Shown: one piece after another, positions 5,960 to 46,692 of the stretch
Position numbering within the stretch: position 1 is the first letter of the stretch
Layout: the number at the start of each line of letters is the position of its first letter
Notes under the pieces: generated by a model
Seen by the model: the letters and a program-made list of their open reading frames with translations, nothing else
What the model was told of the DNA's origin: nothing
The model's database searches: none
Program-made: the position numbers and the translations under genes
Origin: Hydractinia symbiolongicarpus
Lineage: Eukaryota > Cnidaria > Hydrozoa > Anthoathecata > Hydractiniidae
Length of the DNA: 64,000 nt
Assembly (NCBI RefSeq): GCF_029227915.1
Contig: NC_079878.1
Span: forward strand, 5,456,001-5,520,000
Direction: 5' to 3'

Positions 5960-6871
5960 ATGTCGAGTTTTGATTGCGATGGAAATATTACAGCTCCTCA
6001 CGCCTTGTCTATATTTACTGCCAGCACATCATGTTTGATTGCGTTTATAGGAACTATTGGCAACTCTTTGATTATCAGCGTGGTTTTGTTGGATCCTTTG
6101 AAGAAGCTCCACACACCATTTAATTATTTTGTTGTAAATTTATCAGTCAGCGATCTAGTTGTTGATGCAGTATTTTTACCAATATCTGTGTACGCTCACA
6201 CTTTGGAAGCTTTAAAAGAGTTGACAGACAAAGGAGCTAATGTGTTTCACATTTCTTTCTTTATATCAATGACAGCGAGTATCTTGAGCTTGACTGCGTT
6301 GACTGTGGACAGACATGTTGCCATAACATATCCTATAAAATACCGAACATACTTGAGTTGGAAAAGATGTTTCCTAATATCTTTAGGAATTTGGGTTTTT
6401 GCATTAACAGTGCCATTCGCATACGACGAGAGTAAGAACTTTGTCCATTTTTTGATGGCATATTCAAATGTTGGTATTCTAGTCGCGCTTATAACTTTTA
6501 TTGTCACTTATGTGAGAATATTAAAATTCTTAAAATCGCAAAGTGAAACACTGAGGAAGCATTTAGAAACTTCAAATACAGAAACAGACCAATTTGATTT
6601 GCATCGCGTTGCCATGGAAAAGAAGATTACACGTGTGTTATTAATTGCATTGTTTTTGTTTATTTTAACATATCTACCAGCTTCTATAATGATTTGTCTT
6701 TTGCAGTTCATCAAGGCTAACAAAGAGTACTGTCCAATTCGTCATGTTCTTCGCGATTTATCCTTTTTATTCATTGCTTCAAATAGCTGTATGAATCCGT
6801 TCGTGTATGCAATGCGATTGAAACCATTTCGAAAATCTATTGTGGCTTTATTGAAATGTCGTAAGGAATAG
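5960..6871 (+). CDS. Class A (rhodopsin-family) GPCR, intronless
   Basis: This 303-residue seven-helix receptor acts at the plasma membrane, where such proteins couple ligands to G proteins; the ligand is unknown. Visible landmarks are a TM1 GN (N35), TM2 NLSVSDL (D65), a DRH triplet at the end of TM3 (117-119, in place of DRY), TM4 Trp145, a TM6 proline (P240) without the CWxP motif, and TM7 NPFVY (279-283). The N-terminus is short with one glycosylation sequon (N9) and the C-tail is very short. The conserved TM3 cysteine that pairs with ECL2 is absent, ECL2 is minimal, and TM5 lacks its usual proline. These traits recall the melanocortin/cannabinoid/EDG/adenosine group, but that assignment is inference. 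The nearest similar gene is the broken paralogue at 8964. The start is the first ATG of the frame and gives a complete TM1. Confidence 0.92.
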   Translation: MSSFDCDGNITAPHALSIFTASTSCLIAFIGTIGNSLIISVVLLDPLKKLHTPFNYFVVNLSVSDLVVDAVFLPISVYAHTLEALKELTDKGANVFHISFFISMTASILSLTALTVDRHVAITYPIKYRTYLSWKRCFLISLGIWVFALTVPFAYDESKNFVHFLMAYSNVGILVALITFIVTYVRILKFLKSQSETLRKHLETSNTETDQFDLHRVAMEKKITRVLLIALFLFILTYLPASIMICLLQFIKANKEYCPIRHVLRDLSFLFIASNSCMNPFVYAMRLKPFRKSIVALLKCRKE

Positions 6872-8963: not shown

Positions 8964-9934
8964 ATGAAAATGTCGCAGATGGCATGCAACGGAACTTGGG
9001 CTCCAACTTCACTATCAATATTCACCACTTCTATGTCCTCCATATTCTGTGTTATCGCAAGTCTTGGAAATGTTCTTATTGTGTTAGTAGTGGTTAAAGA
9101 TCCCTTAAGAAAATTACGTTCACCATTTCTCTACTTTATTGTGAACCTGGCTATTAGTGATCTTATTGTTGGAATGATAGGTATGCCAGTCTCCGTGTAC
9201 ACACACACTATAGAAAGTCTTGGAAAATTGGACGACGCTACTGCTAAAGTGTTTCACATGTCATTTCTGATATCAGTGACAGCCAGCATTTTGAATCTTA
9301 TCGCTTTGTCAGTAGATAGGTATGTAGCCATAACTTTCCCTTTGAAATATCGGAAATATTTAAGTTGGAGAAGATGCTGGACTATCTCGTCCTTGATATG
9401 GTTGTTTTCGGTTACCGTCCCTTTTGCATATCTTAAATTAGGTTTTATCAATTATTTGATGGTATAGCGTTCGTTATTTTAACGTTCACCAGCTTTCGAA
9501 TTCAAAGGTTTTTAAGAGCTCAAACACACCACATGAAAAAACAAATACGAACAAACACCACTGCAGCCGAAGAATTTCTCTTAAAACGACTTGTAATGGA
9601 AAAAAAAGTAACCCGCGTTTTTGTTATCATTTTGATTTTGTTTATCGCAACATACGTTCCAGCTACGATAATGATTTACATTTTACAATATTGCCTTAAA
9701 TGCGACTGTACATTTCGACATTATTTGCGCGATTTTGAGTTCTTATTGATCGCGTCAAACAGCTGTATGAATCCTTTTGTGTACACGATGCGTTTCAAAC
9801 CATTCCGACAATCGGTGGGACACTTGTACAGATCATGTAAAAGACGTTTTTCATGTACAGTAGAGAAGAGTTACGTTAGTACTGCAACAACCAGCACTAA
9901 CAGCACCACACCACTTTCCAACAAAAAAGATTGA
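8964..9934 (+). pseudogene. Class A GPCR paralogue broken by a frameshift at ECL2/TM5
   Basis: The first part (8964-9461) encodes TM1-TM4, with N36, D66, DRY at 118-120 and Trp146. The frame then meets TAG at 9465. Reading resumes in another frame from 9461 (GIAFVILTFTSFRIQRFLRA), matches TM5 and loop 3 of the intact neighbour, and runs through TM6 and TM7 (NSCMNPFVY) to the stop at 9934. Relative to the neighbour, a few ECL2/TM5 residues are missing and the frame is shifted, as expected from one small deletion. No GT-AG intron explains the break and the paralogue has no intron. The C-tail is longer than the neighbour's and rich in Ser and Thr. TM3 again lacks the conserved cysteine. Codons on both sides of the break remain clean, so the lesion is recent or an assembly error. 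Confidence 0.8.
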
Positions 9935-21500: not shown

Positions 21501-23238
21501 CAAACCTAGTACACATATTATTAAGACCTGATCTGACTTATATCAATAAAGAGAATACATACTAAGCGTGTATTTCACTATATAGATATAATGTCAAAAA
21601 TATTTATCAGTGTTTCCGAAAATAGCTAAATACAGAAGCTCAGAAAGACAGTGGAATTTGGCTCCATTATCTGAAACCAGTCCAGAAACATATCATACTT
21701 CAAGTCATTATTTCAATTCCAACTCAAGTTATTTAATGTTAGAAAATTTCTCGTCTAGAATTTTTCGCGAATTCGCGAATAAGTCTCCAATTCGCAAAAT
21801 CCGCGAAATATTCCATTTTGACCGATTTGTGGAATTTAATTCATGCAAAATGTAAAAAAATACGCGAGTGAACCGAGTCACAAAATTTAACTTCCAGTTA
21901 TTCCACTTAGTCTTTAAACATATGTATGAAACTTTGTCACAAAAGTGAAATTTTCTCTTTTAGTTGCTTGGTGGATATCGTTAGCTCCCTTGATTGCAGT
22001 ATTTACAGCTCGTATAAGCAAAGGTCGCACAATTGGGGAAGTAATTCAGTATACGATGTTCTATCCAGCGCTATTGTTACTTGTTTGGTTTTCAGTGTTC
22101 GGTGGTTTGGCTATTGATATGCAATACGCTGCAATGAAAGGAAACATTACTTGCGACATGTACGACTCAAACTTCCACAGGTTGGTAGTTGCTGCTAAAT
22201 TTTGCTAATTTGCTTTTAACTAAAAAGAGACACACATGCAAAAAAGTAGTATCATATTAGTAACATAGAGTTACTGGCAACAGCATTATTTTTATCAATT
22301 TACTTTATAGAATTAACAATAGTCGATGGAATGCAAATAATATGCACATTGGTGAGAGATTAGATTGCAACCCAGATGATGGTTTTTACGCTTTAATAAA
22401 TCAGTTAGATACTTCATATTTTCCTTTCTTGCACGTGTTGTCAATGTTGGCAATCGTTCTTCAATTTACTACACAAGCTGATAGTTCTTCTCTTGTAGCT
22501 GATATCATTTCTTCAAATGGAAATGAAAATGCCCCTGTTTTGCAACGTTTTGTTTGGGCAATTCTATTAGGAGCCAGCGCAACAGCTGTAGTACACTACG
22601 AAGATGATATTTTTGCCTGGGTTGTTTTGCTGTCGTTACCATGGGTGTTAATGCTCTTATTTTTCTGTTACACTATATGGAAAGTCTTAGATAACGAAGA
22701 GGAATGGTTCATAGGGAATGTCAAGGAAATGGAGTGGTCATCACCGTATGGTAATTATAAGGGAAAATCATTACTTTCTCATTTGATGTTGGCAATCATC
22801 GTTCCTTGGTATTTCTTAGGGAAGATTGAAATACGAGAAAGACAATCTTCACACAAGATCAAACAAATGTCTTTTTACTTGAAATTTGCTTTGCCTTTTC
22901 TTGCTTGGTTTTTACTTGTGGTTACAGGATCAACAGGCCATGGTCTTACAATATTTGGCTGGGTTTCATTAGTCTGGTTTTTTGTCTTGGTGGCTATTTG
23001 TCGCAGCAAAGTTCGGAGAAACAGTGACATCAAAGGTCACCCTTTTGGTGATTTTGTGTTAGCGTGCATTTATCCACTTGTGGTTCTGCAACTTTTGGCC
23101 GAAACCGAACTCCGAGGTAATAACAATGCATCGATATCTGTTAATCAGTACATCGCGGAAGAATATTCTCAGAAAATGACAAAAATAAATTCTACTGAAC
23201 AGGTTCAAAATAAAGGAGAAGTTGAATTGGATGTCTAA
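18581..23238 (+). CDS. BCCT-family transporter, copy A (seven exons, 744 aa)
   Basis: Coding exons are 18581-18645, 18946-19193, 19367-19517, 19866-20287, 20783-20986, 21964-22180 and 22311-23238. All junctions are GT-AG, phases agree, and the summed length is 745 codons. BCCT proteins carry betaine, carnitine or choline across the plasma membrane through about 12 helices. Family landmarks are FDCNPVV before TM1, EPIMHY after TM3 (about residue 140), HW in TM4, WWISLAPL and ARISKGRTIGE (about 365-390) and TTQADSSSLVADI (about 480-490). The glycine-rich TM3 stretch is reduced to TGFSASKFS. Two of the aromatic substrate-box positions are non-aromatic (HPWAIY region reads LGTSAY; third Trp of WWxxW is Leu). 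The substrate may therefore differ from that of bacterial BetP. Start: an in-frame stop lies just before ATG 18581, which follows an acceptor-like tatttag, so a 5' UTR exon is probable upstream. Confidence 0.9.
19750..19805 (-). repeat. Hairpin-repeat fragment in BCCT A intron 3
   Basis: On the minus strand, tagcctgtgg-aaaaat-ccactgg matches the hairpin core of the dispersed family with mutations. Its counterpart in unit B is near 32783-32838. Confidence 0.5.
21100..21437. mobile_element. 338-bp segment present only in unit A (intron 5)
   Basis: Unit B reads straight from gaatattaag to ggatattaag (about 34143-34153); unit A has 338 extra bases between them. The segment ends in taataag, resembling the left flank attaag, so a short target duplication is possible. 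I see no clear terminal inverted repeats. It is either a small non-autonomous insertion in A or a deletion in B. Confidence 0.6.
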
Positions 23239-34600: not shown

Positions 34601-35934
34601 AAATTTAACTTCCAGTTAATCCACTTAGTCTTTAAACATATGTATGAAACTTTGTCACAAAAGTGAAATTTTCTCTTTTAGTTGCTTGGTGGATATCGTT
34701 AGCTCCCTTGATTGCAGTATTTACAGCTCGTATAAGCAAAGGTCGCACAATTGGGGAAGTAATTCAGTATACGATGTTCTATCCAGCGCTATTGTTACTT
34801 GTTTGGTTTTCAGTGTTCGGTGGTTTGGCTATTGATATGCAATACGCTGCAATGAAAGGAAACATTACTTGCGACATGTACGACTCAAACTTCCACAGGT
34901 TGGTAGTTGCTGCTAAATTTTGCTAATTTGCTTTTAACTAAAAAGAGACACACATGCAAAAAAAGTTACTGGCAACAGCATTATTTTTATCAATTTACTT
35001 TTATAGAATTAACAATAGTCGATGGAATGCAAATAATATGCACATTGGTGAGAGATTAGATTGCAATCCAGATGATGGTTTTTACGCTTTAATAAATCAG
35101 TTAGATACTTCATATTTTCCTTTCTTGCACGTGTTGTCAATGTTGGCAATAGTTCTTCAATTTACTACACAAGCTGATAGTTCTTCTCTTGTAGCTGATA
35201 TCATTTCTTCAAATGGAAATGAAAATGCCCCTGTTTTGCAACGTTTTGTTTGGGCAATTCTATTAGGAGCCAGCGCAACAGCTGTAGTACACTACGAAGA
35301 TGATATTTTTGCCTGGGTTGTTTTGCTGTCGTTACCATGGGTGTTAATGCTCTTATTTTTCTGTTACACTATATGGAAAGTCTTAGATAACGAAGAGGAA
35401 TGGTTCATAGGGAATGTCAAGGAAATGGAGTGGTCATCACCGTATGGTAATTATAAGGGAAAATCATTACTTTCTCATTTGATGTTGGCAATCATCGTTC
35501 CTTGGTATTTCTTAGGGAAGATTGAAATACGAGAAAGACAATCTTCACACAAGATCAAACAAATGTCTTTTTACTTGAAATTTGCTTTGCCTTTTCTTGC
35601 TTGGTTTTTACTTGTGGTTACAGGATCAACAGGCCATGGTCTTACAATATTTGGCTGGGTTTCATTAGTCTGGTTTTTTGTCTTGGTGGCTATTTGTCGC
35701 AGCAAAGTTCGGAGAAACAGTGACATCAAAGGTCACCCTTTTGGTGATTTTGTGTTAGCGTGCATTTATCCACTTGTGGTTCTGCAACTTTTGGCCGAAA
35801 CCGAACTCCGAGGTAATAACAATGCATCGATATCTGTTAATCAGTACATCGCGGAAGAATATTCTCAGAAAATGACAAAAATAAATTCTACTGAACAGGT
35901 TCAAAATAAAGGAGAAGTTGAATTGGATGTCTAA
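31646..35934 (+). CDS. BCCT-family transporter, copy B (seven exons, 744 aa)
   Basis: Coding exons are 31646-31710, 32010-32257, 32406-32556, 32905-33326, 33837-34040, 34682-34898 and 35007-35934. Every exon has the same length and phase as in copy A. The product is a 12-helix betaine/carnitine/choline-type transporter with the same features as copy A, including the altered TM3 glycine stretch and substrate-box positions. By direct comparison I find only about four amino-acid changes, for example FDGNPVV for FDCNPVV, DRLSW for DRFSW, LALFHW for LAFFHW and GNMW for GNVW. Exon 7 is identical at the protein level. Both copies are open, so both may be functional. A reading frame beginning at 34954 that seems to extend exon 7 is intron read-through caused by a shorter intron 6 in this copy. 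Confidence 0.9.
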
Positions 35935-43490: not shown

Positions 43491-45297
43491 GTATGCACTG
43501 CATAAAACGAAATATGTGTGAATTTTGCTCCTTGTAAACTGTACACATTCTTTTTAATAAATAATTTACTTTTCACTCTGATATTGTCCGGGGTTTTTTG
43601 ACCATATTATGACCGGGTGGTCACAAAATATGTTCAAAAAAATATGTTTTTCTTATAGCAGCATTTTTTTTCTGTGACATCATCAGAAGCTTGACATTTG
43701 TCCAAAATACCACTATCTGCTTATAATTCAATTACTTTAATTTTAGAGCAAATCTTGACATTGTATTTATAGTTTCTGACAGCCACATTGAAGTTATTGA
43801 CATATTTGTGGGTTTCCGATTTTTTCGGATTTCAGGTAAAATCCGAAAAAATCGGAAAGTCAGTTCAATTACGTGTCCAATACATACAGAGTGATCCCCG
43901 TCGATTAAATATAGTTGTGTTGTAAGTTTAAAGGTTTAAAGATAATCCTAACGAAAGTTATTATAGACTTTTAGGGGTAGCATCAAGTAATACCCAATAT
44001 AGCCAAAGACTTTGAGAGGTATGGTTCCAAAAAACCGCACTTCAAGATTTGAAATCTATTTTTTAAAGTAGATGCATAGTACACATATTGTTTAATACTT
44101 TTTGAACATATATGGTGTCGAAACAATTTATCAGTGTCTCCGAAAATACATAAACTAGACATTATTAAAAACTTAGAAAAAACAGTGGAATTTTCATCCA
44201 TTAAATGAAAACGATCTAAAAACATATCGTACCAAGCTTCAAGTAATTATTTAATTCCAAATAAAGTTATAAGTACGTTTTTTAAATGTTGATAGCGAAA
44301 TAGCCAGTGCGAAATGTTGATGTATTCACCGTCCCGCAATGATACAAATTCTAAAATAATATATCACACTGAAAAGCTATTTAATATCTGTAGACATTTA
44401 ATTTTAATGCGATTGGAAACAGTTTAAAAACCTTTATTCCTGTCCATCCACTCTCAACAATATGACTGTAATTTGAAAAGCTTTTAACTGCTCCTTTGGA
44501 AGTCAGCGTTGTATTTCTTGAGAATTAATTTTCGCAAGGTGAACAGATGAAACATCGCGGAAATTAATTTTTCCGGTCACTAATTGGCCGCCGCGAAAGT
44601 CGTGGGTTACATATTGTCATATTACATATTGTCCCTAACAAAAATGTATTTTTTCAGTATGTAAATTGCTACTTACTTTTAAAAAAATTAACGGCTCTAT
44701 GAAAGTCAATCTTAAAATATCGCTAAATTTTCGCAAATTGTGACTACCAGAAAAAAAGAATTCGAGGAAACTATTTTCGTCATATTCAAGGGCCTTAAAT
44801 ATTTGGCGACCATTAAATATCACGAAATGGGCGAAAAAAGTAAAATTTTCGAAAGAAATAAAATTATTAATAATAATTATTAATAATCCTCTAACCGTAA
44901 GCACAAGGATCAATCATTTTCACTGTCACAAGAATCATTATTGTTCCATCTGACACTCTCCTCAAACCTGAACCCTAACCGGATGTACGATCAGTTAGTT
45001 ACACGTACCCGTCACTTACGATTGATTTTTTAACTGTGTTGTTTTATACCGGATTTATTGAGCAATTGTATTTAAAACACGTCTGGACAACGAGAACACA
45101 CACGACGCTTACATTACACAGTTGTAAACAGTTGACATGGGTGTGTGATATAGTTATCTTGTATTAAATTTTTACTTCCTGGGTGTCGAGTATGGCACCA
45201 AAATTGTTTCGAAAGTAAGATCACAAAGTAAGACTAATTTATTTTAGGGTATATAAAAATCTTTTCAAATTAAGTTTTTATAAATACTGTCCAATTC
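43491..45297. other. Decayed BCCT intron remnant and 3' flank of the receptor-channel gene
   Basis: Bases up to about 44275 include remnants of BCCT intron 5 (match near 44130-44275). It also holds the perfect hairpin at 43813-43858 and cgcgaaa-type repetitive sequence at 44540-44860. An AATAAA on the minus strand at 45238-45243 lies 55 bases past the stop of the minus-strand channel gene. Confidence 0.55.
43813..43858. repeat. Perfect 20-bp inverted repeat
   Basis: Arm tttccgattttttcggattt (43813-43832) is matched without mismatch by its complement ending at 43858, with a loop of about six bases (caggta). It would form a strong hairpin in RNA or DNA. Confidence 0.9.
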
Positions 45298-46692
45298 TTA
45301 ACAGTTCAGTGCACGTCTCATTGATGCAACATCATCTTTTAAATAATCAATCTCCTTGCTCAGTTTCCTAATTTCGATAAATGAAGTTTTTAACACATTA
45401 CGATAAATTTCTTCGTCTGTTTTAGACTCTGCGTTTGAGACAACGTTCTTTTGGAACAATGTAATCCTTATAGTTTCGTATATACAGCCAGCAACCACCA
45501 AAAATATCGTGAGACCCAGCAATATCTGCATATAGATGCTCTCTTTAAAAAATTCTTTTATTGACCCACGGTAAATCGTAATCGTCTTACAATACCGCAC
45601 GATAGAATTTTCTGCTTCTGTAAAAATGTCTAATCCAGAAAAAGTTGAGCAATTGAGAAGACTTGTTACAGTTTTGCTTAATCCGAAGAGTGCATTTATT
45701 GACACTGGCTTGTTTATGGTGTATACAACATGCAGCGGTTGTTTGTGATTTCTAATGTCATCTTGATTCCATGACGCTACATGAATATTTATTAGAGCTG
45801 CATCAGCTTTATCTTTTCGAATTAAATCAAATACAGCATCCAGTGAATCGGCTGTTATTATGTCAGCTTCGTAATCATCCTTAGCTATCAGTGCTTCAGG
45901 TGAGTCACTTAAAACAGCTACTTTCTTTCCATATATGTCTAGAGAAGAAGTACCAGAAATGTTGTCAGTAATGGTAGCTGTCATGACACAAATCATGGCA
46001 ACTCCAAATAATGTCCATACACCACTGATGGTTCTTCCAATCACATAACGTGGCACCAAATCACCATAACCCACTGAGGTCATTGTAACAAATGACCACC
46101 ATACTCCCTGGCTTGCTCCAGTGATAAATGACTTGCCAAAGTCACCTCCATACAGCATTTCTGATGCCCATATAATTATGCCAAATATAATGCTAATTAA
46201 AACGGAATAAATTATAAGGCTTCTACAGCTTGTAATACCTTGCAAGATCTTTGCTGGCAATGATATCTTACTTTGGGACATAACAACTGCTAAACTTCTA
46301 CAAGTGAAAAAAGCAAATTTCATAAGCGGCGCTTTTTCTAATAAGGAGTTTAAAATTACATTATCTGCATAAAACGGGACCCAGAATGAATTTTGAAGTG
46401 TCACATTTTTAAGCTCGTTTTCTCCGTACGCTGATATCTGTTCTTTAGTTGCATTTTTTTTGATCAAATTTATAAACGAATTTCTGTCTGGCAATTTCTT
46501 GACATACTTAAAAACTCGTGTTCCATTTGCGCATAGGTTTTCTGTAGCTTTAAAAATTCTTGGAAATAAACCGTCCATATCTCCGTTTTCATTTCTGAAT
46601 ATATATGGCTTAATTTCCCAGTACACGATATCGATGCTTTGATTTGATGCTAGCACTGTTACGAACAATATCATAAACAATATGCAGTACAT
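45298..46692 (-). CDS. Glutamate-receptor-like ligand-gated channel with a K+ selectivity filter, intronless
   Basis: The protein has 464 residues. In order: signal peptide (1-16); a short extracellular S1 half of a periplasmic-binding-protein-like ligand domain (about 18-130, opening IDIVYWEIKPYIFRNENG) with sequons at N17, N56, N80 and N96; M1 (about 158-177); a pore loop ending TSVGYGD (205-211); M2 (about 219-241); the S2 half (about 250-380, with YGKKVAVLSDSPEAL and KADAALINI); a third helix (about 388-408); and a cytoplasmic tail with a predicted coiled coil (about 426-460). This is the layout of bacterial GluR0 plus the extra helix of eukaryotic iGluRs. Pore and M2 resemble prokaryotic K+ channels (GVWWSFVTMTSVGYGDLVP). 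Expected role: ligand-gated K+ current that hyperpolarises the cell. The ligand is unknown, because I do not see the standard S1 Arg motif of glutamate receptors, and S1 is shorter than usual. There is no amino-terminal domain. The gene is a single exon, unlike its multi-exon neighbours. Confidence 0.88.
   Translation of the reverse strand: MYCILFMILFVTVLASNQSIDIVYWEIKPYIFRNENGDMDGLFPRIFKATENLCANGTRVFKYVKKLPDRNSFINLIKKNATKEQISAYGENELKNVTLQNSFWVPFYADNVILNSLLEKAPLMKFAFFTCRSLAVVMSQSKISLPAKILQGITSCRSLIIYSVLISIIFGIIIWASEMLYGGDFGKSFITGASQGVWWSFVTMTSVGYGDLVPRYVIGRTISGVWTLFGVAMICVMTATITDNISGTSSLDIYGKKVAVLSDSPEALIAKDDYEADIITADSLDAVFDLIRKDKADAALINIHVASWNQDDIRNHKQPLHVVYTINKPVSINALFGLSKTVTSLLNCSTFSGLDIFTEAENSIVRYCKTITIYRGSIKEFFKESIYMQILLGLTIFLVVAGCIYETIRITLFQKNVVSNAESKTDEEIYRNVLKTSFIEIRKLSKEIDYLKDDVASMRRALNC

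Follow-up and report, generated by a model that had tools for sequence, protein, structure and literature searches.

Does an animal genome encode glutamate-receptor-like channels whose pore carries a potassium filter? The question is raised by a gene in a 64,000-nucleotide stretch of the hydrozoan Hydractinia symbiolongicarpus (contig NC_079878.1, positions 5,456,001 to 5,520,000; the whole stretch is referred to as the window). A first-pass annotation, made from the letters alone, had read an open reading frame (ORF) at 45298..46692 as such a channel, with a split ligand-binding domain, an intact TSVGYGD motif, a third membrane helix and a coiled coil. Translation of the window recovers this frame on the minus strand, complete from ATG to TAA in a single exon and encoding 464 amino acids, within a 36-Mb contig (C4; 35,952,230 bases) of a 481-Mb genome. 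Domain order, filter, modelled fold and relatives support the glutamate-receptor-like interpretation, and we consider it likely that the gene product is one subunit of a tetrameric, ligand-gated K+ channel belonging to a cnidarian family within the ionotropic glutamate receptor (iGluR) superfamily.

A ligand-binding domain split by a potassium-type pore

The chain opens with a hydrophobic N-terminus forming a candidate signal peptide (residues ~1-16, 46645..46692, minus strand like all parts of the gene; signal-peptide-like at 2-20 by hydropathy), followed by the S1 half of the ligand-binding domain (LBD; residues ~17-145, 46258..46644). The pore module consists of a first transmembrane segment (TM1; residues 157-180, 46153..46224), the pore helix and filter (residues 189-211, 46060..46128) and TM2 (residues 217-246, 45955..46044), with both TM segments placed by an AlphaFold2 (AF2) model and by hydropathy (158-176 and 224-242). 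The TSVGYGD filter is intact at residues 205-211 (46060-46080), and sequence, model and a Pfam match to Ion_trans_2 (1.7e-10) agree on the pore. TM2 is probably equivalent to iGluR M3, to judge from alignment with GluR0-type channels and from general knowledge of the superfamily. The S2 half of the LBD (residues ~247-381, 45550..45954) leads into the predicted third TM, the equivalent of iGluR M4 (residues ~382-405, 45478..45549; 382-400 by hydropathy), which the model renders as a long helix spanning 386-423. The chain ends in a low-confidence model helix (residues 426-463, 45304..45417); similar tails are seen by eye in the homologues P0003, P0004 and P0009, and the proposed coiled coil is plausible there.

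The simplest alternative is an ordinary K+ channel of the voltage-gated (Kv) or two-pore-domain (K2P) type, with flanks that resemble a split binding domain by chance. Searches of Pfam, NCBIfam and PDB sequences with the window protein detected the pore as the sole part, with bacterial, Kv and KCNQ chains, and K2P chains when an alignment was used, among the best PDB rows. A domain search had been proposed as a check, and it delivered the pore; Lig_chan scored 0.011, below its cut-off, and no Pfam match to a solute-binding protein (SBP) domain was found. SBP models likewise matched none of 30 proteins in alignment A1 and none of 28 in alignment A3 at E 0.01. That the binding domain is invisible to single-sequence profiles may explain why databases name such proteins 'Potassium channel domain-containing' or 'uncharacterized'. 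Against an ordinary channel, profile-profile comparison (hhalign) with the pore excluded matched the family's S1 to bacterial GluR0-type S1 (E 6.5e-8) and its S2 to bacterial S2 (E 3.1e-7), and the AF2 model (a monomer built on 15 sequences, mean predicted local distance difference test (pLDDT) score 76, predicted template modelling score 0.62) shows alpha/beta half-lobes of the clamshell type flanking TM1, pore and TM2. Moreover, one TM separates the signal peptide from the pore, without the S1-S4 helices of Kv channels, the chain holds a single pore loop where K2P channels have two, and a tree of pore sequences separates the protein from Kv channels. We regard a chance resemblance as extremely improbable.

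The arrangement can be placed between two known types. GluR0 of Synechocystis and the bacterial SBP-K+ channels share the order S1-TM1-pore(TxVGYG)-TM2-S2 and the clamshell fold; the cnidarian family differs in running on past S2 into the third TM and a tail, in mostly lacking the binding arginine and in lacking an SBP Pfam match. By hydropathy, a TM follows S2 in 31/31 class-1 and 30/30 class-2 proteins of the family (61/61) but in none of 27 bacterial channels. Eukaryotic iGluRs (AMPA, kainate, NMDA, epsilon) show the layout of the AF2 model, that is LBD, M1, re-entrant loop, M3 and M4, from which the window protein departs by having no amino-terminal domain and a GYG filter in place of the Q/R/N-site loop. 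Two relatives bear immunoglobulin and CUB domains ahead of their binding domain (P0038, P0045) and another bears fibronectin III (P0014), possibly as substitutes for the iGluR amino-terminal domain. Among animals, AvGluR1 of the rotifer Adineta vaga is likewise an iGluR-type protein with a K+ signature filter; the accessible parts of PMC12332018 and PMC12226733 describe eukaryotic architecture and selectivity for K+ over Na+, the latter also gating by amino acids, whereas the cnidarian family has lost the carboxylate arginine.

A cnidarian gene family and its descent

The window protein has one full-length homologue at 89% identity and eight more (P0003-P0010) that share 34-41% identity with it across 83-98% of its length. 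Together with 20 further intact, single-exon paralogs in its own genome, these show that the architecture did not arise by chance. At an E cut-off of 0.001, the own-genome search gave 68 matches, ordinary K+ channels among them. At 21 of the 28 places examined, the window gene included, an intact single-exon ATG-to-stop ORF of 419-516 residues whose filter reads G[YF]G[DE] was present. The remaining seven comprise an ORF without S1 (L007), a match containing two stops (L017), an exon of a class-2 gene (L024) and four places where no intact ORF with the filter was recovered (L025-L028). The intact paralogs stand partly in tandem, for example at C13:7.74-7.85 Mb and C5:21.36-21.37 Mb; LOC130641990 and LOC130641991 are also relatives in this species. 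Among seven paralog pairs, the ratio of nonsynonymous to synonymous rates (dN/dS) was ~0.2-0.42 in the five with measurable dS, the other two, including the window gene's own pair, being saturated. By comparison, GYG was found in none of the six readable exons of the animal's own ordinary iGluRs (16 fetched).

A second, multi-exon set of relatives was described from matches and patterns rather than full gene models. Of 89 genome matches, 20 loci were chosen, all with a readable GYGD and 19 with S1 similarity, partial in some. Another family gene, on C1, has a 663-residue model with an intron; the protein P0016 (source contig of 2,210 bases) matches the entire 605-residue query at 96% identity, is of a length with that model and reads through its intron, as expected of a spliced transcript. 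Assembly duplicates may account for some of the near-copies within the family.

The first glycine codon of GYG is interrupted by a phase-2 intron (GG^N TAY GGN) in 19 of those 20 multi-exon loci (L136-L154), so that the filter arises solely after splicing; the gene of P0030 has a contiguous filter. The figure of 19 was obtained with a pattern designed for that split, which found exactly one pair per locus, and tblastn set both exon ends there in 11 loci. Splice choice at this intron could yield filter variants. An intron at that filter position is frequent in K2P genes, and among three K2P-like loci fetched, L156 (G000:C9:20974150-20975400), probably a K2P gene given its two adjacent Ion_trans_2 stretches, has an intron in the same glycine codon, with both exon ends read (the acceptor end alone in L157, neither in L155). 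Its codon is cut after base 1 (phase 1) rather than base 2 as in the family, and we do not take the two introns as common descent; K2P ancestry thus gains no support from them. Introns go unmentioned in the available part of PMC4906011.

A profile search with alignment A1 added just P0015, and it was a search with a divergent class-2 protein that opened the family. That search, which depends on short shared words and from which absence in other animals does not follow, scored 7,991 candidates and returned 115 proteins. The 56 entries P0016-P0071 (E ~5e-27 or better) carry the architecture or part of it, and all 18 with an organism name are cnidarian (Clytia, Hydra, Hydractinia, Xenia, Porites, Nematostella, Rhopilema, Actinostola, Actinia, Montipora and Oculina). 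Lower entries are mostly SBP-bearing channels, bacterial where named; a fragment from Stylophora (P0076) is also among them, as are Kv and plant channels found via the pore. Four of the returned proteins (P0119, P0125, P0128, P0129), considered by length as mollusc or other non-cnidarian members, were rejected, as their sequences read like Kv fragments.

Such a gene could also be bacterial, either as contamination or by descent from a transferred GluR0-type channel. The window gene is intronless, and the closest relatives found outside Cnidaria are bacterial SBP-K+ channels, in searches that lean on short shared words or the filter motif. In contrast, the 36-Mb contig, the paralogs on seven large contigs and the multi-exon relatives argue against a contaminant, and the uniformly cnidarian names and the third TM, absent from the bacterial channels, point the same way. 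Phylogeny adds that the cnidarian proteins and P0014 form a single clade, both in a pore tree (86 rows, quick method, two of six iGluR rows kept), where it is separate from animal Kv channels with a support of 94 in the Shimodaira-Hasegawa-like approximate likelihood ratio test (SH-aLRT), and in a full tree (69 rows, all six iGluR rows), where it gathers 41/41 with SH-aLRT 100. Within the latter, the intronless class has a support of 98 and the remaining members 73. As to the requested placement beside iGluRs or bacterial homologues, an approximately unbiased (AU) test does not separate the two positions (p 0.54), and the best tree keeping cnidarian proteins and iGluRs together exceeds the unconstrained quick tree by 1.17 log units. 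Ancient transfer to an ancestor of the cnidarians is compatible with this test, and the third TM favours kinship with eukaryotic iGluRs, with convergence a possibility. Overall, we rate a bacterial origin as unlikely.

Ligand site, pore and proposed gating

In iGluRs, an arginine and one acidic residue hold the amino-acid backbone (PMC6307864, in its accessible part). The arginine column, where the S1 alignment is uncertain, holds Arg in 42/46 bacterial proteins but in only 2/31 class-1 and 1/30 class-2 proteins. The acidic column holds Asp in 44/46 bacterial proteins plus one Glu, and Asp or Glu in 30/30 class-2 proteins (15 with a cnidarian name), while the 31 class-1 proteins have 23 Asn, 7 Asp and 1 Ser. 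The window protein lacks both, a pair that marks amino-acid-binding iGluRs, though not all members of the superfamily. With both residues changed, ordinary amino-acid binding is unlikely and another ligand, or none, has to be considered; the ligand of the window protein is unlikely to be a plain alpha-amino acid bound in the usual manner.

Several points weigh against a ligand-gated K+ channel. The carboxylate arginine is lost in 58/61 family members (Ile in the window protein, subject to the same uncertain alignment), and the acidic residue of the window protein is Asn. Ligand binding could consequently have been lost, leaving a constitutive channel, a modulator or a non-binding subunit, and a K+ filter sequence is no proof of K+ selectivity. 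The fold evidence comes from that 15-sequence monomer with its mean pLDDT of 76; its whole-chain TM-scores against iGluRs are low (0.32-0.45, by query length), and the clamshell match ties with bacterial glutamine-binding proteins. AvGluR1 was not among the 50 rows of that fold comparison, which excludes nothing.

Insect variant receptors bind ligands in the absence of the canonical residues. A clamshell without ligand binding, in a protein that is a constitutive K+ channel, modulates other channels or acts as a silent co-subunit, would fit the lost arginine and the Asn of 23/31 class-1 proteins, and has a precedent in 28 metazoan iGluRs for which the accessible part of PMC6307864 infers loss of amino-acid binding from residue changes. 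Against it stand the insect receptors, the acidic residue kept in every class-2 protein and purifying selection on paralog pairs along the whole ORF, and we find it improbable. Less probable still is non-selective conduction despite GYG, through an inverted iGluR-type pore with a different surrounding cavity. Filter variants such as THGYGD in the multi-exon relatives L136 and L137 would suit it, but the filter of the window protein is canonical, and PMC13099474, as far as its available text goes, describes GluR0 as a K+ channel with the reverse orientation of KcsA.

Under the ligand-gated K+ channel reading that we favour, four subunits would assemble, their N-termini and S1/S2 clamshells facing the cell exterior. 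The pore would consist of TM1, TM2 and, between them, an inverted loop bearing the K+ filter, and the third TM would anchor the chain and leave the tail in the cytoplasm. By analogy with GluR0, a ligand would close the clamshell and thereby pull the TM2 gate open rather than shut; K+ efflux would then hyperpolarise, and so inhibit, the cell.

Neighbouring features and significance

Beyond the stop codon of the channel gene, a candidate polyadenylation signal, AATAAA, can be read 55 bases downstream (45238..45243, minus strand). On the plus strand, a 298-residue multi-TM protein is apparently encoded twice (22342-23238 and 34954-35934), with translations alike by eye over their common part, which seems to reflect a recent duplication or an assembly repeat. 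Two ORFs at 5960-6871 and 8964-9934, the second in two pieces, resemble rhodopsin-class G-protein-coupled receptors by eye.

A cnidarian K+-filter glutamate-receptor-like family is apparently undescribed so far. No paper on one appeared among the literature matches listed, weak evidence of absence given that subscription titles lie mostly outside the coverage. The K+-selective iGluRs named in the accessible parts of PMC12226733, PMC12464821, PMC6307864, PMC3483616, PMC12332018, PMC13335744, PMC13099474 and PMC4906011 are GluR0 and AvGluR1, with no cnidarian one.

The numerous divergent, partly tandem paralogs suggest a role in sensing chemicals, either external or passed between cells. Insect variant ionotropic receptors (IRs) form a comparably expanded and divergent iGluR-type set that lacks the canonical amino-acid site; the cnidarian family differs in its K+ filter, and a chemosensory role for it is putative. 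Tentatively, and with more doubt than confidence, we suggest that cnidarians may possess a large K+-conducting iGluR-type family of chemoreceptors that inhibit, acting as a hyperpolarising equivalent of the IRs. Such a family would comprise dozens of genes in one species, with a remodelled ligand site, and may have gone unnoticed because profile searches miss its binding domain.

Chloride channels are mainly credited with fast inhibition in animals, and animal iGluRs with excitation. If the reading is true, a cnidarian-wide, expanded family with an iGluR body and a K+ filter would represent, for nervous systems near the base of the animals, a separate route to ligand-gated inhibition, and its receptors may quiet rather than excite cells upon chemical binding. 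Intronless genes, a genetically tractable animal and standard recordings make it open to direct test. The family would also provide actual sequences for a long-standing question, namely how K+-channel pores joined binding proteins, and, should it prove the sister group of the eukaryotic iGluRs as a whole, it would preserve a living trace of the transition from K+-channel to glutamate-receptor pores.
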